Positions 2,359 through 33,505 of a DNA stretch of 49,385 nucleotides are shown piece after piece. This DNA is from a virus, in the IMG/VR virus record IMGVR_UViG_3300025010_000091, positions 1 through 49,385 of that record; one strand, given 5' to 3'. How positions within the stretch are numbered: the stretch's first letter is position 1; every line of letters starts with the position of its first letter. Both the position numbers and the translations under genes were made by a program. The notes beneath the pieces are model-generated. The model was not told where the DNA came from and did not search any database. It worked only from the letters and a program-made list of their open reading frames with translations.

Positions 2359-4510
2359 GTACCGGCCTCAGTATGCATTGAACGTCTTTTATTGTTGGGG
2401 AAGTTACTTTCCATTTATGGTATTTGGTTACATAGGTAATCTTCAGCAAAGATTCTCCAGGAATTTCAGAAGTTAAAGTACCATCTTCCGCAAAAGTAAT
2501 TGCTCCTAAAGAATCCATTACCCAGTCAATAGTATTCCTTGTGTATATTGGTTTTGACGTTTTACCAGTACCATTAACAAATTCAATAAGTTCATAGGGT
2601 AGTTCTGAATCAGCAGGTGGCATGTTTTCAGTAACCACACCAAGATATTCAATAAGTACTGAAGTACCACCAGAAGTATCAAGGTAAACTTCTTCACTAT
2701 CCCATGGTGTATGAAATCCTTTTACAAATTTAGAGATACTGGAAATTTCTTCTTCCTCTAATGTATAGGAAATACTGGAAGTCAATTGATCTGATACGTA
2801 AATAGTATTTACTCCTGATCTTTCTTCGGAAGTAGTGGATACATTTTCATAACGGATATCTGTTTTCAGATCAATATCAATTGCTTCTATTTGGTAACTG
2901 GGAACTTTCTTCGGGTACAAATGGATTATTTCCAATCGACCTTCTGGTGTAGACTGCATAACTGCACCAAAAGCTTCCAATATCTTTCTAATCACTACTA
3001 ATGGTTTCTCATTGTTTGCAAATAAGTAACCAGCGGGTATTAGTTCATCAACCAATTGGCCACTCTCATATACATTCCAATCTACAGGGATATTATGAAT
3101 AGCCGCAAGTTCTACTACCGTGGTAGATGCTAAATTAGCAGGGAATTCTTTCTGCAATGTTGGTGAAAACTTACTATCCAGTAGTACCGATTGACTTCTA
3201 CAAGTTAAAGTATATACCGTAGAAGAAACTGTAGTAGTTCTGGTCTTTTCCCATAACAAAAGATGGAACTCTTTTGTTTCTGCTCCTACTGTAATAGTAA
3301 TAATTACATTGGCTTTTCTAACACATAACGGGAAGAAGTCTGGTTTGGATAAAGTAAATACTCCTTCTATGTAGTGTTGTTCTATATCACAGTTTATGTT
3401 AACATTTTCGGATGGTACTTCTACACCAGATATAGTAACACTGTAAGAAATGGCATTAGTGGTTATTTCATTAGCAGTTATATTCCAATGTTGTCGTAAA
3501 TTAGAAACTATTTTGTTAAGCAATTCTAAATTATAATTATGGGATAAACTTATATTGGTTAACTGTTCTGTTATAGAATAGGATTGGTTAGAAGTTGCCA
3601 GAATATTTCCAATTAAAGTAAAAGCCTGTTCCAATTGTACTACCGTTCTTATTTCTTTTACATATATCTGTTCTAATACTTTTATAATATTTCTGCTGGA
3701 GCTATAGTATTGTTCCAAAAAAGTGCTTATTACTTTAGCATCTCCATAATTATGTGCCAGTGTAGCAAGGAGGAACAAACCATTAATTTGTTCCAATTTA
3801 GAAACTACCATTGAAAGTATAGAATATGGTTGATTGGTAAAACCATATACCGTTCCTTCTAAAAAATAAGGGCACCTCAACATTGACAATATCCTTACAG
3901 TTTCTACTGCTGGCAGCGTCTGCGTCTGCGATGTGGCCGCTGCCAGATAGGCGATCTCCGCTTCGGTCGGTATGCGGTCGTACCACTGGATGTTGTCGAC
4001 GGCGACGTTTTCCTGGCCTGCGGCAGAATCGCTGCGGCCAAATATTTTTAACACTCCTGCCAGCCCGGTTGTCAGTTGAGCTGAGGCTTTTGTGCCATCC
4101 AGATACAGCCAGTGCTGGTTATTGCTCGATCCCTCGACAATCCATAGATGGTGCCATCCGGTGCCGACCGTCAGATTTGTATACGACAGGCCGCCGTTAT
4201 AGACACCGAGATTGCCAGGACTACCAGTAGATATCAGTAAGATTTTTCCATTTGTCGACTCAGCCCCAAAACATGAATAGTTTGCGGTAGATACCCGCTG
4301 AAACCACAAAGAGAGGGCTTTAAATGATCTGTCAGCGGCAAGTTGCAGAGCTTGGGTAGTATCTGTATTTCCACTTAAACCATAATCAAATTGGCCAGTT
4401 ATTTGTGTCCTGCCAGTAAAAGTCAGATTCTCGCCACCGGCAACCTCATCGATAACCGATGAGCCGGAGATGTTGTCCATGGTCCAGTGATGGATAGGCG
4501 TATCGGTCAT
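2351..4510 (-). CDS. Tail hub / tip protein with N-terminal LamG (concanavalin-like) domain
   Basis: 719 residues. Residues 1-195 form a LamG-type lectin fold: HHWTMD start, WHHLWIVEG, HWLYLDGTK and VDNIQWYDRIPTEAE finish, the usual strand order of this family. Residues about 200-340 are helical and repetitive (VVSKLEQI-, VLEQIYVKEI, VVQLEQAF). The C-terminal 380 residues are a beta-rich region resembling tail hub proteins. The DNA coding for the LamG part (about 3905-4230) is clearly more GC-rich than the AT-rich remainder, which suggests a recently acquired module. The domain probably binds host surface glycan. The hub role is inferred from position and general pattern. Confidence 0.7.
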   Translation of the reverse strand: MTDTPIHHWTMDNISGSSVIDEVAGGENLTFTGRTQITGQFDYGLSGNTDTTQALQLAADRSFKALSLWFQRVSTANYSCFGAESTNGKILLISTGSPGNLGVYNGGLSYTNLTVGTGWHHLWIVEGSSNNQHWLYLDGTKASAQLTTGLAGVLKIFGRSDSAAGQENVAVDNIQWYDRIPTEAEIAYLAAATSQTQTLPAVETVRILSMLRCPYFLEGTVYGFTNQPYSILSMVVSKLEQINGLFLLATLAHNYGDAKVISTFLEQYYSSSRNIIKVLEQIYVKEIRTVVQLEQAFTLIGNILATSNQSYSITEQLTNISLSHNYNLELLNKIVSNLRQHWNITANEITTNAISYSVTISGVEVPSENVNINCDIEQHYIEGVFTLSKPDFFPLCVRKANVIITITVGAETKEFHLLLWEKTRTTTVSSTVYTLTCRSQSVLLDSKFSPTLQKEFPANLASTTVVELAAIHNIPVDWNVYESGQLVDELIPAGYLFANNEKPLVVIRKILEAFGAVMQSTPEGRLEIIHLYPKKVPSYQIEAIDIDLKTDIRYENVSTTSEERSGVNTIYVSDQLTSSISYTLEEEEISSISKFVKGFHTPWDSEEVYLDTSGGTSVLIEYLGVVTENMPPADSELPYELIEFVNGTGKTSKPIYTRNTIDWVMDSLGAITFAEDGTLTSEIPGESLLKITYVTKYHKWKVTSPTIKDVQCILRPVHE

Positions 4511-4869
4511 AGCGTAACCTTATATTCTACATAACCACAATGTGTTGGTTCCCACGGGGCATCTTTAACTGGGGCATTAGAGCATTGAATCACAAAATTG
4601 GAGCCATCATCAACTACACTATTGGCACTTATATTTATCTTATAAATAAATAATGGGCTTCCACATTTTGGGCATTTTGGCGGGGTAAAAATTTTTCGTA
4701 TTGCTCTTTTCTCAGAATATTTTGGAACCATTTCACGCGTAGATTCTGATAGAAATTCTTGTAATCTTTGGCGAAGAAAGCGCAAATCAATAATCCCCTC
4801 TGATTCCGCTATTGTGGCAATATTAATAAAATTTTGAATATCTTTTTGGGAAAAAGCGGAAAAAATCAT
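4507..4869 (-). CDS. Zinc-ribbon hypothetical protein
   Basis: 120 residues if translation starts at ATG 4869, which gives the ATGA overlap used throughout this operon. An in-frame ATG at 4881 would add four residues. The N-terminal half is helical (FSQKDIQNFINIATIAESEG). The C-terminal half has a CPKCGSPLF knuckle with two later cysteines (QCSN and HCGY), a likely zinc ribbon. It is placed between the hub-like gene and a related group of three tail proteins. It may be an assembly factor rather than a virion part. The function is unknown. Confidence 0.6.
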   Translation of the reverse strand: MIFSAFSQKDIQNFINIATIAESEGIIDLRFLRQRLQEFLSESTREMVPKYSEKRAIRKIFTPPKCPKCGSPLFIYKINISANSVVDDGSNFVIQCSNAPVKDAPWEPTHCGYVEYKVTL

Positions 4870-6653
4870 GGGCACACCCATTCGTAAACCATGGTATCAA
4901 CATATACCCCTGTAGATGGATTGCTTTTAAATGGATATCTATACCTAATATCACCAGAACAACCACTACCATCAACATGCAAGGTATCTTCTTCTATATA
5001 CATTTTATCAGGACACAGTGGATTTTTAGGCAAATTTAATGTTATGCAAAACGGAGCATTTGGATTATAGGAATCGCAGGCAATGGTATAAAATTGATTT
5101 CTAATTGTGTCGCAAGTACCTACGCCACCACCTGATACATTCCCTTGTAAGTATGTTTGCACATACTTAAGTTTTCCAGCATAAAGTTCTGCACCATCAT
5201 ATTGAGTCAATTCTCCTGTTGATCCAGGACAGGTATTATCAAGATCGGGTCGGCGTATCCACTGACCCAATGTTACCCTAATACCATTAGAGATAATTGA
5301 ACATCCATCAGTAACAGTTACTGGGGCAAATCCACAAGCATCCAGACTAGCATACACATAAACATATGGGGTAAGTGTAGTGATTTCTCTAATGTTACCA
5401 GCTTGATTAAATGATATTCCCTGACCACGAACTGACCAAGAATATGGGGATATTCCTCCTGTGACTATAATAAGAGCAGAGTATCCGGGAGCTATAGTTT
5501 CAGAAGAATTGTCAAAGTCCCAAACAATAGGTTCAACTTCATCACAACAATTCTTGGCTCGGACAATCTGTTCTGTATAAATGGCACCGCACCCTTCGGA
5601 AGTGATAGGACCAACAGAAATAAATTCAATAGGACCATCCCACTCTCTGGTCATCCTATCCATTGTTTCCTGTGGTAAAACATAACCCCCTGGGTTTGGG
5701 GATTTCCAAGTTCTACATGGATTAGGGATTCCTGCTACACAGCATTTTTCTAAGTAAAAAGATGGTTCAGCTAATGGCAAAGCACCATATGGGCCAGTTC
5801 CTTCTTCAACACAGCCATAAAATTCTGGTTCTTGTTCAGGTATTTCTGGCTCTTCAGGTTCTTCTGGATCAGTAGTTTGTCCACTTTCCCAACCACATAC
5901 TTGAGCAAGTAGTTCTTTATCTGCTAATATATCTTCTGTTGGTGCAGTTACAGTTCCTTCATAAAACTGGTAATGGTAAAAAGCCAACAAATTCACATCC
6001 TGTGGATTACCAAATTCGGAACCTACATATTTTGGTATTCCTGGTACTTCTATTTCCACTATATCATGTACTGTTACAAACTCTGCTCGTAAAAAACCAG
6101 TAACAGGTTTCTCCCAGAACAGAGTATTACCATAAATTTCTTTTATTATAGGAGGGGAAATCAATCCAGAATTATTATATACAGAACCAATCCAAGAAGC
6201 ACTCAGATTTGACTTTATTGGAAAATCTAATTTAAGAGAAGAAATACCATTTATTGTTACCTGTACAACTATTTCTTTAGTAACGGTAATAGTGCTTTTT
6301 ATGGCACCTACATCTACATACAAAACATATGGTTCATTGGGATGGCTTCGGTAAATGTTTACCAAAGCAGTGTACATTCCACTTTTCAATCTTCGGCATT
6401 CTTCTAAATCTAATTGAACTTTGGCAACTTCTACTAATTTTTCTTCAGTAGGTGGTTCAGATGGTTCTGCTTCAGAATTAGTTGGTTCACCATAACAAGG
6501 GTTTAGATCATATAAAGCATCAAGTACTTCCGCCACTTCTCCCACAGTTATCAGGTCTTCTTCTTTATCCTGCTCAATTCGTAACCAATATTCTTCAGAT
6601 GGAAATTCGGAAGCATCTGAAGAATATGTTACCGATGTAATTTGAGTATTCAT
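4866..6653 (-). CDS. Large tail protein, member of a three-gene paralogous group
   Basis: 595 residues from ATG 6653, which overlaps the upstream stop by 4 nt. A start at 6677 is possible but lacks this coupling. The N-terminus (TQITSVTYSSD, then WLRIEQ) and a central segment (LDFPIKSNLSASWIG followed by a G-R-H strand) match the next two upstream genes. This marks it as the long member of a duplicated family. The middle is Glu/Pro-rich (EEPEEPEIPEQEPE). The C-terminal 300 residues are Cys- and Tyr-rich beta sequence. It is probably a distal tail or tip structural protein. The paralogy is seen directly; the function is inferred. Confidence 0.65.
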   Translation of the reverse strand: MNTQITSVTYSSDASEFPSEEYWLRIEQDKEEDLITVGEVAEVLDALYDLNPCYGEPTNSEAEPSEPPTEEKLVEVAKVQLDLEECRRLKSGMYTALVNIYRSHPNEPYVLYVDVGAIKSTITVTKEIVVQVTINGISSLKLDFPIKSNLSASWIGSVYNNSGLISPPIIKEIYGNTLFWEKPVTGFLRAEFVTVHDIVEIEVPGIPKYVGSEFGNPQDVNLLAFYHYQFYEGTVTAPTEDILADKELLAQVCGWESGQTTDPEEPEEPEIPEQEPEFYGCVEEGTGPYGALPLAEPSFYLEKCCVAGIPNPCRTWKSPNPGGYVLPQETMDRMTREWDGPIEFISVGPITSEGCGAIYTEQIVRAKNCCDEVEPIVWDFDNSSETIAPGYSALIIVTGGISPYSWSVRGQGISFNQAGNIREITTLTPYVYVYASLDACGFAPVTVTDGCSIISNGIRVTLGQWIRRPDLDNTCPGSTGELTQYDGAELYAGKLKYVQTYLQGNVSGGGVGTCDTIRNQFYTIACDSYNPNAPFCITLNLPKNPLCPDKMYIEEDTLHVDGSGCSGDIRYRYPFKSNPSTGVYVDTMVYEWVCP

Positions 6654-29050: not shown

Positions 29051-29296
29051 TTACATTAATCCTTCGGGAGTAGGTTCACAGTATCTATAAAATTCCCCTC
29101 TACCTTGGCACCATCCACACATTTTAAGTTCTTTACAGTCATCACATCCAGAACCTACTTTCTTTCTGTTCCTTTTCCTTTTACAATCTTCACTTGGTCG
29201 AAGATCACAAAAGTATCCAGCGGCATTGCAGTCCAGGCATCTACATACCACGTTATAGTCGTCGCCTACCAATTTATTAAATTTTTCAATTTTCAT
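29051..29296 (-). CDS. Small Cys-rich (zinc-binding) protein
   Basis: 81 residues with nine cysteines in a dense series: CRCLDC near the N-terminus, then FCDLRPSEDC, CDDC, and CGWCQGRG before the end. This could bind two zinc ions. The lysine/arginine block KRKRNRKK between the knuckles suggests nucleic acid contact. It is coupled by 4 nt overlap to the small terminase gene upstream, so a packaging or regulatory role is possible. The family is not recognised. Confidence 0.6.
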   Translation of the reverse strand: MKIEKFNKLVGDDYNVVCRCLDCNAAGYFCDLRPSEDCKRKRNRKKVGSGCDDCKELKMCGWCQGRGEFYRYCEPTPEGLM

Positions 29297-29865
29297 ACTC
29301 TATTCCTCGTTTTTCGGATTACCTTCGGTGCTTCTCCCTCAAACAACTTGTCATAGTAACCGGTATTACCAAGAACGTCATCCCCTTCCCCACCTTTACC
29401 AAAATCCCTACTAAAGCTTTCGGCAAGATCATTTATATTCAGGTTTATACTCCTTATGGTTTCCCGTATCTCTCTAAATAATGGATTAACCTGCACACTA
29501 CCTTTATCGGTTATAGTGGTTACGGGCCTGCCATGGTTAGCTATCTTTAGACTAACCAGATGACCAAACAACGGTATCAGTTCAAATCCAATCCGAAACA
29601 AAGCAGCTTTATCCTCACTCTTCACACTACCTATAAAGTACCGGTAAACATAATCCAAATACTCCTTCCGTACTCCACATAACTTCCCTTCCTCAATATA
29701 GGGACAAGTCGCAGCTATCTGGCAATGGTGAACATCGCACTCTGGAATGGCGTCCCACATCACTACAGGGATTCCCTCGGTAGTGGATCCCTTGACAATG
29801 CTGATGTTGCCCATTCGCTCTTTTGTTGCTCGGCTACTGGTAGGTTGCGGTCCTCGTTTTCCCAT
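29293..29865 (-). CDS. Terminase small subunit-like protein
   Basis: 190 residues. The start MGKRGPQPT is characteristic of P27-type small terminases, and the middle (YIEEGKLCGVRKEYLDYVYR, then KGSVQVNPLFREIRETIRSI) resembles their C-terminal oligomerisation part. It is the second gene of the late operon, with the large subunit three genes on. Small terminase recognises the packaging site and regulates the motor. The region upstream (30018-30528) is a reasonable place for such a site. Confidence 0.65.
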   Translation of the reverse strand: MGKRGPQPTSSRATKERMGNISIVKGSTTEGIPVVMWDAIPECDVHHCQIAATCPYIEEGKLCGVRKEYLDYVYRYFIGSVKSEDKAALFRIGFELIPLFGHLVSLKIANHGRPVTTITDKGSVQVNPLFREIRETIRSINLNINDLAESFSRDFGKGGEGDDVLGNTGYYDKLFEGEAPKVIRKTRNRV

Positions 29866-30017: not shown

Positions 30018-30045
30018 AGGTTCCTCCATGGCTAAGGTTACTTGG

Positions 30046-30074
30046 ATCGTAGCACTTACCCTTTATATTGTCAA
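30046..30074 (-). promoter_or_regulatory. Main leftward (late operon) sigma-70-type promoter
   Basis: On the minus strand a perfect TTGACA (30069-30074) is followed after 17 nt by TACGAT (30046-30051), a 4/6 match to TATAAT. Transcription would begin near 30039 and give a short leader to the ATG at 30017. It is the only clear promoter seen upstream of the terminase genes. Confidence 0.65.
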
Positions 30075-30528
30075 GAACATCTTTAATATAAAGTAGTCCG
30101 AATAGAATTTGCCTTCGGCATTTAATGTTATAGGGGTAGGGCAGAGGAACGTATGCAGGGGCAGGAAAGAGGGGCGACCGCTAAAGGTACAAGGTCAGGC
30201 GTATATGGTCTCCACAAATTGAGAAAATGATACAGGGGTGGGTAATCGGAAACTGTGGGGGGAAAAAGTGGTAAAGTTCTACGGTAAAGGTATGTATGCA
30301 GGTTCGTGGAACTGTTCTCTGCAAAACCACTGGGGGAAAAGTTCACGGAAAATGCGGAAGAAAATTGTGGCGTGGACCCCATGCAGCAGTGAAGGGACGA
30401 AGCACACGAAAATAAAGGGGTGTCCCTCTTGCCTCTTGAACAGACCTTGAGAACACCTGAGAGTAGTCGAACCCTGATTGTCATCTCTCAGCGAACATAG
30501 TCAGACCTTAATCAGGTTACATAAAAGC
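30075..30528. other. Untranslated G-rich block upstream of the terminase genes
   Basis: No credible gene is present. The plus strand is strongly G- and A-rich with runs such as GGGGTAGGG, GGGGGG and AAAGGGG at about 30130-30430, unlike the coding regions around it. A minus-strand frame of 118 codons crosses it, but it lacks a Shine-Dalgarno site and has an odd Ser/Pro/Leu composition. A small stem GGGAC/GTCCC occurs near 30393-30425. The location beside small terminase suits a packaging (cos or pac) site; that is inference. Confidence 0.45.
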
Positions 30529-30551
30529 TTGACAGTCAAATGCGATTGTCA
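30529..30551 (+). promoter_or_regulatory. TTGACA with TGACA/TGTCA inverted repeat (possible operator)
   Basis: A TTGACA hexamer (30529-30534) begins an imperfect palindrome with arms TGACA and TGTCA separated by 12 nt. A good -10 hexamer at 16-18 nt spacing is missing (the bases are GGAGTG), so any promoter here would need an activator. A 9-nt direct repeat GCGAACATA flanks it at 30491-30499 and 30568-30576. Confidence 0.35.
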
Positions 30552-30587
30552 GGAGTGTAAAAGGCAAGCGAACATAACAGACAAGAG

Positions 30588-30634
30588 TAGATTAAGCCTG
30601 TATCTATTCCCTGTCTAATCTATCAATACAGGCT
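30588..30634 (+). promoter_or_regulatory. Interleaved inverted repeats before the first rightward gene
   Basis: Two perfect inverted repeats are interleaved: TAGATTA (30588-30594) with TAATCTA (30616-30622), and AGCCTGTAT (30595-30603) with ATACAGGCT (30626-30634). The second ends three bases before the AGGTGAT Shine-Dalgarno of the gene at 30647. In RNA they could form a pseudoknot or, more likely, alternative stems that govern access to the ribosome site. As DNA they could be an operator. Confidence 0.5.
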
Positions 30635-30646
30635 ATAGGTGATATC

Positions 30647-31180
30647 ATGAATTTATTCGAGTCAGCTCAGGCAATCAAGAGTGAAAGAGATGCAAAGGCA
30701 CGCAAGAGTAGTCAAGGTTCTAGTCCTGATACTCTCACTGTGCCCTACTTCAAGGGTATCGTGCGTAAGGGAGACAAGTACACTGTCAAGCTTGCCCCTA
30801 GGGTATACGAGCATGAGGGAATCATTGAAGGAGTTGAAGAACAGGCATTGCAGGTAAAACCCCTGACAGGGGCGTTCCTGATCAGCTACTTTACCTGTCT
30901 TGCATACGAGATGTGCAAGAACAATATGAAGGGCAAGGGTAAGACGGCAAAACCTGATCCTCAGCCTTTGACTACGTATGTAGTCGAAGCACTTTTGAAG
31001 ATTGAAGGGTTTTCCCTTGAGGATTATGCACAGGGGAAAACAAAGGGTTCAGTCAGGATAGCAAGTCACTTGAAAGCGATAAGCGAACAGCGAGATTTAA
31101 AGATCAGTGTTGACGCAAAGACAGGCACAATATCAGGTATTACTGATAAAGTAGCCTGTGAAGTTCTTTCATCCCTGTAA
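30647..31180 (+). CDS. First rightward gene, hypothetical early protein
   Basis: 177 residues, with AGGTGATATC before the ATG. The N-terminus is hydrophilic and helical (FESAQAIKSERDAKARKSSQ). The rest is mixed, with a basic loop (NNMKGKGKTAKPDPQP) and a C-terminal helix-turn (IASHLKAISEQRDLKISV). No cysteine pairs, signal peptide or catalytic motif was found. It is the first rightward gene, behind a strongly structured leader, so it is likely expressed early and under translational control. I do not recognise it; a nucleic-acid binding role would fit the basic segments but is unproved. Confidence 0.6.
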   Translation: MNLFESAQAIKSERDAKARKSSQGSSPDTLTVPYFKGIVRKGDKYTVKLAPRVYEHEGIIEGVEEQALQVKPLTGAFLISYFTCLAYEMCKNNMKGKGKTAKPDPQPLTTYVVEALLKIEGFSLEDYAQGKTKGSVRIASHLKAISEQRDLKISVDAKTGTISGITDKVACEVLSSL

Positions 31181-31227
31181 AATTCAAAGACCTGAGCAAG
31201 TCAATAAACTGCTCAAAGGATACTGCT

Positions 31228-31299
31228 ATGAGTAAAGGTATAATAGGCTTTTTCGCAGTTCAATTGCTTATCATTCTGATAGGCTACTTTTCAATGTGA
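31228..31299 (+). CDS. 23-residue membrane micropeptide
   Basis: The frame ATG AGT AAA ... TGA encodes 23 residues: MSKG followed by one hydrophobic helix (IIGFFAVQLLIILIGYF). It has AAGGA eight bases upstream of the ATG. Its stop overlaps a GTG that starts the next gene (GTGA). Such tiny membrane proteins are common among early phage genes. It is short, so chance is not excluded, but the clean helix and the coupling argue for it. Confidence 0.45.
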   Translation: MSKGIIGFFAVQLLIILIGYFSM

Positions 31300-31478
31300 A
31301 CGATATGAGTACAATCGAAAGAGAGTTTTTCAGGTACATCGACAAGCTTCCTTTCGATGTACCTTTTGACTATTATGATAACTGTACAGCAAGTGAGATA
31401 CAGTTATCAGGGCATGAAGCAAGCTTGATTGAATTGCAGGATAGTTTATCAGGCTACAGGCTACAGGAGATAGCGTAG
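31296..31478 (+). CDS. Small acidic hypothetical protein
   Basis: 60 residues if started at the GTG of the GTGA overlap (31296). An ATG at 31305 gives 57 residues. It is acidic with an aromatic cluster (IDKLPFDVPFDYYDNCTASE). It is placed between two membrane micropeptides with 1-4 nt spacing, suggesting a co-translated trio. It has no domain that I recognise. Confidence 0.5.
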   Translation: MNDMSTIEREFFRYIDKLPFDVPFDYYDNCTASEIQLSGHEASLIELQDSLSGYRLQEIA

Positions 31479-31567
31479 TGAAGAATATGAAACCTTACGA
31501 AGTGTTTACAGTTGTACGTGTGATAGTCGCTGTGATAGTCGTTTTAACGATGATGATTAACTTTTAA
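31478..31567 (+). CDS. 29-residue membrane micropeptide
   Basis: A GTG at 31478 overlaps the stop of the preceding gene and has AGGAGA five to six bases upstream. It encodes MKNMKPYEV and then one hydrophobic helix (VRVIVAVIVVLTMMI). An ATG at 31487 would give a 26-residue form. With the peptide at 31228 it forms a pair of single-helix proteins around one small soluble protein. The function is unknown. Confidence 0.45.
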   Translation: MKNMKPYEVFTVVRVIVAVIVVLTMMINF

Positions 31568-31576
31568 GGGGGAAAT

Positions 31577-31777
31577 ATGATTGATATGCAACTTTTAATA
31601 TCGGATAGGCTGAATCGCTTTATAGAGAATCATTTTACCTATGAAGATATTGGGGATGCTGAAAACGGACCTGAACTTGATTATTGGTATAATGGTCCTG
31701 ATTGGGCTATTGATTTGTTGGATAGAACAATTGACGCTCCTTTACATAGAGCGGAAGTTAATAACTTATATTTCTAA
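31577..31777 (+). CDS. Small acidic hypothetical protein
   Basis: 66 residues, with AAGGGGGAAAT before the ATG. It is acidic and Asp/Trp/Tyr-rich (DAENGPELDYWYNGPDWAID). This charge profile is common in small phage host-takeover or DNA-mimic proteins, but no family is recognised. It is the last gene before the long noncoding region. Confidence 0.55.
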   Translation: MIDMQLLISDRLNRFIENHFTYEDIGDAENGPELDYWYNGPDWAIDLLDRTIDAPLHRAEVNNLYF

Positions 31778-31987
31778 GCAAACGTCCTAGCGCATGACGT
31801 TAAACTGCGCTATTCTTTTGCCCTGTATTCCAGTACACCAGTATCCCGCTATCTTTCTCGACCTTCCCCTTATACCCTGACTATTTTCTGTTTTCTATTC
31901 TATCAGCGGTATATCACTGGTTCATTTCCCCTATAGCGGATAAGCCGCTATTCACCGCTATTTTCTTTCATTCCCTGTTTTCCCCTG

Positions 31988-32030
31988 CGCCCGGCATCGG
32001 TTTTCCTTCGGGCGGCTTTCACCAGCCGCC
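31988..32030. other. Overlapping alternative hairpins
   Basis: CGCCCG (31988-31993) pairs with CGGGCG (32009-32014). GGCGGCT (32011-32017) pairs with AGCCGCC (32024-32030) around a 6-nt loop. The shared bases 32011-32014 allow only one stem at a time, as in an antiterminator/terminator pair, though no T-run follows on either strand. Confidence 0.45.
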
Positions 32031-32186
32031 AACCCATTACCTTATCCTGTCCTACTCGACTCCGTTATCCAGCTGCCTGCCATAGCTACGGGTACGGCGG
32101 CCCCGCCCCGTAACCCAACCCGTTATATTCTGCTGATACAGATTAGTGGTAGACACCACCCTAAGCGCAGTTCCCACGGGAAACTT

Positions 32187-32226
32187 TTCCAATTCATGTA
32201 TTCTACCACGCAACACAGAATTGGAA
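32187..32226. other. 9-bp perfect inverted repeat
   Basis: TTCCAATTC (32187-32195) and GAATTGGAA (32218-32226) with a 22-nt loop, placed just before the second exact CCAACCCGTTATATTC copy. Confidence 0.5.
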
Positions 32227-32423
32227 GTAGTCCAACCCGTTATATTCCTGTGCCTGAACCGCTCCTTTACCAGTACAAATCGTACCTGTACCCGTTACAA
32301 AGCGGTGGAAATGACCCCACAGCCCGTATATCTACCGATACGAAACGAAGTACCTTGACCCCCCGCTAGAGTCTCCATACCTGCCTAACAACATCAGGTT
32401 TGTAATGGTTTACTGGTCTGGTA

Positions 32424-32455
32424 CAGGTAACAGCATCATTGGAACTGCTTACCTG
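32424..32455. other. Bulged hairpin
   Basis: CAGGTA-(ac)-AGCA pairs with TGCT-TACCTG, ten pairs with a two-base bulge and a 10-nt loop. Asymmetric bulges of this sort are typical of folded RNA rather than of DNA operators. Confidence 0.45.
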
Positions 32456-32776
32456 ACAGGGTAACGGTATGGTACAGCCCTGCCCCGCAGCCCAACCCAT
32501 TACTTACTCATAGTCTTCCCGTAGGCCAGTAACAGAACCGCTGACCCTAAGGCCCGTCCCCACGGTGAACTAAACCAATATACCTAACAGTCACGGTACA
32601 GTGGACGTGTGCCAGCCTAACGGAACACGGGCTTTCTGCCTAACGGTTACTGGTTCAGGTCCAGTCCATGCCACCGTACCATTACCCTTTCATCCTGTAC
32701 CTGTGCAACACTGCTGCAACCTTCGGTGTGTACAGAACCAGTGACCAGAGCCAGATACAGGGACCGTGCCCGTGTA

Positions 32777-32847
32777 CAGGTGTTAACACACCTGACCAAA
32801 GGTCCAATGTCGAGAACCATATACCGTGGTGCACCACCCTGCGGGTG
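32777..32847. other. Cluster of compact hairpins
   Basis: CAGGTGT-TAAC-ACACCTG (32777-32794) is a perfect 7-bp stem with a tetraloop. GTGGTGCACCAC (32826-32837) is a perfect 12-bp palindrome. CACCC-TGC-GGGTG (32835-32847) overlaps its right edge. Together they form the densest secondary-structure block of the region. Confidence 0.5.
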
Positions 32848-33084
32848 ACCAGTACCCATTCCATTATATTCTTTTACTTACTTCTCTATACCTGTTACCT
32901 ACTCTTGTTTATTTTATATTGTTTCGGTTATTATCGGCAAGAGATTATTTGTTTACTATTTAGTTTTGTACCGTAGTATTATTTACCACTATGTTATCGT
33001 TACTGAGTTTCTTGTTGTTTTTCTCCTGTAAATTGTAATGTAGCGGGTGGATATATTGTACCAGTAAGTCATTTTCTTTATAGG

Positions 33085-33113
33085 TTTACTTAGCCACTGA
33101 TATATGTTATATA
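33085..33113 (+). promoter_or_regulatory. Candidate extended -10 promoter for the early gene cluster
   Basis: TTTACT (33085-33090), a 17-nt spacer, then TATATA (33108-33113) with a TG one base upstream (TGTTATATA), the extended -10 form. Transcription would start near 33120, about 30 nt before the gene at 33152. The -35 match is only partial. Confidence 0.4.
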
Positions 33114-33151
33114 GTAGTTTGTAGTCTAATTTTATATAGGGAGGAAATGAT

Positions 33152-33505
33152 ATGATCCATAACGAGATAGACAATTTACGAAATCCTTTAGAAGCTGCTA
33201 CGTTTAGGCGGTTAGTCAGGAAGATAGAGATGGTGGCTGAGTTTGATATGAATGTTGTTAAGATGCAACGGTTTGAGTTTATCAGATTTAACTATCGGAA
33301 GTGGGAAGAGGAAGAGGCTGGTTGGAACTTGTATACACTGGTTCATAAGACTCTTAGTTTAGAACTGAAGGCACGGGAGTTGGGATTGTTAGAAATAGAC
33401 GGTAGATACTTATGTGTTTCTTGTTGCACTTCAGAGTTTGTTAGGAGCGGTGAGACTGTGGTGGAGTGTAAACGATGCGGTCAAATCTTTAAGGGTTGGA
33501 GGTAA
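33152..33505 (+). CDS. Zinc-ribbon hypothetical protein
   Basis: 117 residues, with AGGGAGGAAATGAT before the ATG. The first 85 residues are helical and charged (EAATFRRLVRKIEMVAEFDM). The C-terminal 30 residues form a treble-clef or ribbon with CVSCCTSEF and CKRCGQIF. It is the first gene after the noncoding region and its promoter-like element. Zinc ribbons of this kind often contact DNA, RNA or RNA polymerase, but the target is unknown. Confidence 0.6.
   Translation: MIHNEIDNLRNPLEAATFRRLVRKIEMVAEFDMNVVKMQRFEFIRFNYRKWEEEEAGWNLYTLVHKTLSLELKARELGLLEIDGRYLCVSCCTSEFVRSGETVVECKRCGQIFKGWR

Follow-up and report, generated by a model that had tools for sequence, protein, structure and literature searches.

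GOLLD and ROOL RNAs frequently, but not universally, have tRNA genes as neighbours, and pac sites of the P1 type are made of hexamer repeats. In phage ICP1, the pac terminus is located in a 1.3-kb orf-less space between gp1 and gp2 (PMC7145576), and a second orf-less space of 1 kb, between gp139 and gp140, gives rise to a noncoding transcript of roughly 800 nt which is the most abundant transcript of this phage (PMC7567579). The noncoding region of PLE, which is bound by RepA, provides an example of an iteron-type origin (PMC7145576).

The locus described here is found in the IMG/VR virus record IMGVR_UViG_3300025010_000091, a stretch of 49,385 nt that is referred to below as the window. The preceding plus-strand gene ends at position 31777 and the next one starts at 33152, leaving a gene-free stretch of 1,374 bp (31778-33151), the first 1,093 bp of which form a GC-rich, C-biased and repeat-bearing block (Table 1). 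The sequence-only reading had described about 1.1 kb without a gene, richer in GC than its surroundings, C/T-biased on the plus strand and carrying at least six stems and repeated short motifs, and each of these features was borne out. The GC content of the block is 51.1% compared with 39.9% for the whole window, and the block is the GC-richest segment of its length (one of 1,932 sliding 1,093-bp windows reaches this value). Its plus strand has a pyrimidine fraction of 57.4% and a C/(C+G) of 0.62, where both the C over G bias and the pyrimidine content are strongest over the initial 300 nt. The block has six perfect stems of 6 bp or more, compared with 2.2 +/- 1.4 in dinucleotide shuffles, and four of 7 bp or more, compared with 0.8 +/- 0.8; the excess of stems is real but modest. 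No tRNA or tmRNA gene was observed in or near the block.

Like the pac space of ICP1, the block is a gap on the kilobase scale in a lytic phage that has a densely packed genome and a replisome of its own, and it is in such noncoding DNA that ICP1 has its terminus and a late replication signal. However, the block has no sequence similarity in the phage records and the two contig ends of its near-complete relative differ. It resembles the region of the ICP1 transcript in having about 1 kb without ORFs and no tRNAs but differs in that no conserved fold was detected. GOLLD and ROOL share its length class and phage location, whereas the block has no Rfam hit, no tRNA island and no family-wide covariation. 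Repeated short sites in noncoding sequence with AT-rich DNA alongside are features that the block shares with the iteron-type origins of phages, satellites and plasmids, although its hexamers are irregularly spaced, occur in both orientations and have no recognised initiator gene adjacent to them. A P1-type pac site also has many hexamer copies near packaging genes, but the hexamer is a different one.

Table 1. Coordinates of the features in and around the noncoding block (window positions).
Feature	Position	Strand	Remarks
Second conserved noncoding block, upstream of the small operon	about 30030-30646		left part G-rich on the plus strand
Small operon with a noncoding block on either side	30647-31777	+	177-aa conserved protein of unknown function, short ORFs
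GC-rich, C-biased, repeat-bearing noncoding block	31778-32870		defined by composition, gene calls and homologues in relatives
Predicted H-type RNA pseudoknot, beginning 3 nt past the stop codon of the ORF before it	31781-31812	+	compensatory changes, loop lengths
ATAGCGG-N5-CCGCTAT hairpin or dyad, then a second direct CCGCTAT	31933-31962		arms the same in all three genomes
TAAYGG, copies 1-6 of 12 (range of all copies 32034-32866)	32034, 32062, 32120, 32237, 32292, 32403	-, -, -, -, -, +	both orientations
TAAYGG, copies 7-12 of 12	32462, 32497, 32618, 32641, 32679, 32861	+, -, +, +, -, -	both orientations
Internal duplication, first copy	32076-32193		65% identical to the second copy; single copy in G010
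Internal duplication, second copy	32452-32579		pair of the first copy
Best conserved core	32603-32650		GGACGTGTGCCAGCCTAACGGAACACGG unchanged in G010, then ..TTTCTGCCTAACGG
Palindrome GTGTTAACAC	32780-32789		different palindrome, GCGCTAGCGC, in G010 (our own reading of the alignment)
AT-rich tail, candidate unwinding element	32871-33150		29.6% GC; 24 of 4,911 windows as AT-rich
Early promoter candidate, TTTACT-17-TATATA with extended -10 (TG)	33085-33113	+	TTTACT-17-TATAAT in G010

Homologues were searched for in IMG/VR with DNA and with the neighbouring proteins, in phage records, and in GTDB genomes through the neighbouring 177-aa protein. The phage records held no sequence similar to the block, and these searches together gave one full homologue (G010; positions 4620-5375 of the 10.3-kb contig L069) and one partial homologue (G001; contig L001 of 86.6 kb, which ends inside the block and shares its left 290 nt). 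Among the three phages the block was found to be 71-80% identical in segments and to occupy the same genomic place, and the genes flanking it are syntenic. The GC-rich part of G010 is only about 750 nt long, and the extra 380 bp or so of the window belongs to a diverged internal duplication. Two observations had been named beforehand as speaking against the sequence-only reading, namely an absence of both conservation and a transcript, and a protein frame consistent among the homologues. The block is kept in G010 and partly in G001, and its translated similarity to G010 is spread across all six frames, as in conserved noncoding DNA. A protein-coding gene on either strand was rejected, since the best ORF (32668-32976) is broken by in-frame stops in the G010 homologue.

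The earlier placement of the block inside the early genes proved to be wrong. It lies between a small plus-strand operon and the early operon, at the divergence of a leftward late/structural arm and a rightward early arm, a position that follows from the gene directions of G001 and from its skew, which turns at contig ends falling either side of the block region. In this near-complete relative, plus-strand genes extend over about 45 kb from the contig start and minus-strand genes over about 40 kb (45 to 85 kb), and the cumulative GC skew has its maximum at ~45 kb where the arms meet. The genome of the phage would be roughly 88 kb in size, and those of its uncharacterised environmental lineage about 85-90 kb. 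G001 also encodes a replisome of its own with PolA, a gp32-like SSB, a RecA-like protein, a clamp loader, a 5'-3' exonuclease, a ligase, a DnaG-like primase and a helicase. Noncoding blocks lie on both sides of the small operon, and their strand biases are opposite (in L069, the second of these blocks is found at 2990-3660). The 177-aa protein of the operon (30647-31180) has no Pfam or PHROG match and was observed among the relatives in G001 and G010 only, and the alignment of its gene gave the strongest consensus-fold score among the tested segments (z -6.2 on the plus strand). The predicted structures of the two proteins flanking the block are of low confidence (pLDDT about 46 and 51).

The hexamer TAAYGG was found 12 times in the block compared with 1.6 copies expected, and none of 1,000 shuffles had more than six, where the motif was picked after inspecting the block and the shuffle counts are uncorrected for this choice. 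The module private to the window, which is missing from G010 and holds five of the 12 copies, serves as a partial check, and the shorter block of G010 has eight copies compared with 1.3 expected. The change from GTGTTAACAC in the window to its counterpart in G010 keeps the symmetry, including the central pair, which an RNA hairpin could not form. This palindrome suggests a DNA dyad site, and protein-binding DNA sites are favoured because the symmetry is kept at the centre, where RNA cannot pair. A 28-bp perfect palindrome of G010 is an inverted pair of CCTAACGG; this palindrome and the hairpin at 32011 are not common to both genomes. No cluster of DnaA or IHF boxes was observed in the block. 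To the right of the block, 47 bp around the early promoter candidate are identical in the window and G010. A leftward TATAAT (32863-32868), which overlaps a TAAYGG copy, is a candidate -10 element kept in the two genomes, of which G010 alone has a good -35 to match.

We give about an even chance to the block being a cis-acting control region in the DNA, sited where the two arms diverge and most likely serving as the main replication origin. An origin or control region fits best because conserved noncoding DNA, repeats, a junction of GC-rich and AT-rich DNA, a skew minimum, the divergence of the arms and a phage-encoded replisome are found together. In the window, the sharpest GC drop (32860) and the minimum of the cumulative GC skew (32904) both fall at the right edge of the block, and the AT-rich candidate unwinding element directly adjoins it. 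The proposed GC-skew check of the origin model came out at the block's edge, and a turn of the skew is also seen in G001, where in both cases the skew is confounded by gene orientation. Of the three suggestions made in the sequence-only reading, an origin agrees best with the position, the skew minimum, the iteron-like repeats and the AT-rich DNA, but the block has no DnaA-box cluster and no initiator protein family was recognised among the scanned phage proteins. Our confidence is kept at an even level because of this lack of an initiator and the confounded skew. The reading draws on one complete and one partial homologue, and in two distant relatives (G011 and G013) the skew minimum lies within structural genes, contrary to it. 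In the proposed mechanism, an initiator, either phage-encoded or borrowed from the host, would bind the dyads and the TAAYGG copies of the GC-rich block, the adjacent AT-rich tail would melt open, and the phage helicase and primase would be loaded there. Forks would then leave both ways, co-directional with the late genes on the left and the early genes on the right, and the early promoter candidate would belong to the same control region. An origin at this site would provide a concrete replication start point for this phage lineage.

No alignable sequence was found at the junction in distant relatives, whose capsid proteins are 47-65% identical. The junctions of G005, G006, G009, G011 and G013 nevertheless contain strongly C-biased tracts (skew -0.44 to -0.80). 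Of the six distant relatives whose junction was mapped, four (G005, G006, G009 and G015) have a local skew minimum inside it, and in G006, G009 and G005 this minimum lies at the right end of the C-rich tract. Most of these junctions also contain direct repeats, whose sequences are unrelated to one another. The repeats were noted at 976-1078 and 376-436 of L090, 3507-3657 and 5177-5234 of L085, 17524-18015 of L097 and 14406-14463 of L083, with spacings of 21, 17, 81, 31, 8 and 29 bp. If the block is an origin, these observations suggest that in several relatives the composition and architecture of the noncoding junction outlast its primary sequence.

The foremost alternative, which we consider unlikely, is a pac region where the small terminase would recognise the repeats and start the headful series. 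P1-type pac sites are built of repeated hexamers, the gene of the terminase large subunit is located 3 kb away, and the ends of contigs are concentrated in the junction, with 11 of the 17 contigs that have a homologue of 29293-29865 ending at most 2.7 kb from that homologue. The pac space of ICP1 provides a precedent (PMC7145576). The cluster of ends may, however, only reflect variable DNA that breaks the assembly, and G001 favours this cause over a packaging terminus because its two ends, which lie ~2 kb apart (it ends at the window equivalent of about 32.06 kb and starts at about 34.08 kb), do not coincide as those of a physical terminus would. Furthermore, the contigs of the window and G010 read through the region, and no small terminase was identified. 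The start of the G001 contig (L092 1-72) has a 22-bp inverted repeat with a short loop, TTAATCATATCATTAACGGCAA...TTGCCGTTAATGATATGATTAA, which is either a genuine hairpin or a fold-back that arose in assembly.

A large, discrete structured noncoding RNA acting by its fold, either of the GOLLD or ROOL kind or like the ICP1 transcript, appears improbable. For each strand, the folding energy was lower than in shuffled sequences, with z scores of -4.6 and -2.3 for the window and of -3.1 and -4.4 for G010. Since GC-rich inverted repeats lower the folding energy whatever the function, the retention of mutated pairs was tested instead: predicted pairs mutated between the window and G010 were asked to be still pairable in the other genome. 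The comparison took in about 580 nt of the block in two segments (69% and 63% identical), with the 380-bp private module lying outside them, and the test is blind to folds of invariant pairs. On the plus strand, 24 of 121 mutated pairs were kept compared with 31.1 expected (ratio 0.77), and on the minus strand 41 of 120 compared with 41.1 (ratio 1.00). RNase P RNA, used as the positive control, retained pairs at 1.45 times the expectation (minimum 1.23 over 30 pairs of sequences, mean identity 65%). A single conserved fold is not supported on either strand because, unlike in RNase P RNA, mutated pairs are kept no more often than expected by chance. The consensus-fold scores of the block segments, plus or minus strand, do not stand out, and the suggested Rfam search gave no match at the gathering threshold, including the GOLLD, ROOL and OLE covariance models, with only chance-level matches at a relaxed threshold. 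In addition, the presence of the 380-bp module in one genome and not the other, the hairpins that are not shared and the absence of a nearby tRNA speak against such an RNA. In its favour are, besides the folding energies, the minus-strand TATAAT at the right edge, the abundance of the ICP1 transcript from a similar space (PMC7567579) and a covarying pseudoknot at the left edge. The proposal of a large structured RNA thus finds no support as a single conserved fold and survives in this small element, whereas pair retention in the two compared segments is at chance level. Pair retention with an RNase P control is a cheap guard against reporting low-energy GC-rich phage DNA as a giant RNA.

The predicted pseudoknot has the order AACGTC-C-TAGCGCA-T-GACGTT-AAAC-TGCGCTA, where stem 1 (AACGTC/GACGTT) forms 6 bp and stem 2 (TAGCGCA/TGCGCTA) forms 7 bp, with C as loop 1, 1 nt between the stems and AAAC as loop 3. 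These loop lengths (1, 1 and 4 nt) place it on the plus strand; a minus-strand version was rejected, as 1 nt would have to cross 7 bp of shallow groove. Stem 2 is GATCA/TGATC in both G010 and G001, where two neighbouring pairs have changed in each arm (CG to AU and GC to UA). G001 has one further pair of stem 2 deleted on both sides and one swapped pair in stem 1 (CGAC/GTCG). The change in stem 2 is common to G010 and G001, so that the compensatory changes represent two or three events and not many. The comparison supports a separate small RNA element belonging to the transcript of the small operon, and it is probably a structure at the 3' end of this mRNA with a role in stability, termination or translation. 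A covarying pseudoknot directly behind a stop codon would be a small but specific RNA element.

It is also improbable that the entire block is an untranslated control region of this kind, namely a Rho-dependent termination zone or mRNA 3' end between the small operon and the early promoter, in which C-rich, G-poor RNA would follow the operon and the pseudoknot would protect or regulate the 3' end. The pseudoknot is found 3 nt past the stop codon in the window and 4-8 nt past it in G010 and G001, the excess of C over G and of pyrimidines is greatest in the first 300 nt, and the early promoter candidate follows shortly downstream. However, about 100-200 nt would suffice for this purpose and not 1.1 kb, a large part of the block, unlike a Rho-binding site, has a high GC content and can fold, and both the TAAYGG copies on the two strands and the conserved core are left unexplained. 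Transcription of the block as a discrete ~1-kb plus-strand RNA starting with the pseudoknot, as a new phage RNA class, is very unlikely. In such an RNA, the pseudoknot could be, for example, a nuclease-resistant 5' end or a processing boundary, the body would evolve by gain and loss of modules too fast for pairwise covariation, and repeated TAAYGG-containing modules would act in place of one fixed fold. A host-derived insertion, as also proposed earlier, is disfavoured because three related phages share the same place at 71-80% identity and several distant relatives have a C-rich noncoding junction.

Two further observations concern genes of the relatives. In G010, the gene for the large terminase subunit (L098 4183-7032) has an in-frame insertion of ~1 kb in the ATPase P-loop, which is missing from the window and G001; it begins at the Cys after RGEGK and ends with ..VTHN before a Ser, and is intein-like. 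In G001, the N terminus of the PolA-family polymerase frame (L093 8470-11070) gives an additional match, to a uracil-DNA glycosylase domain; such a fusion would be unusual if real.
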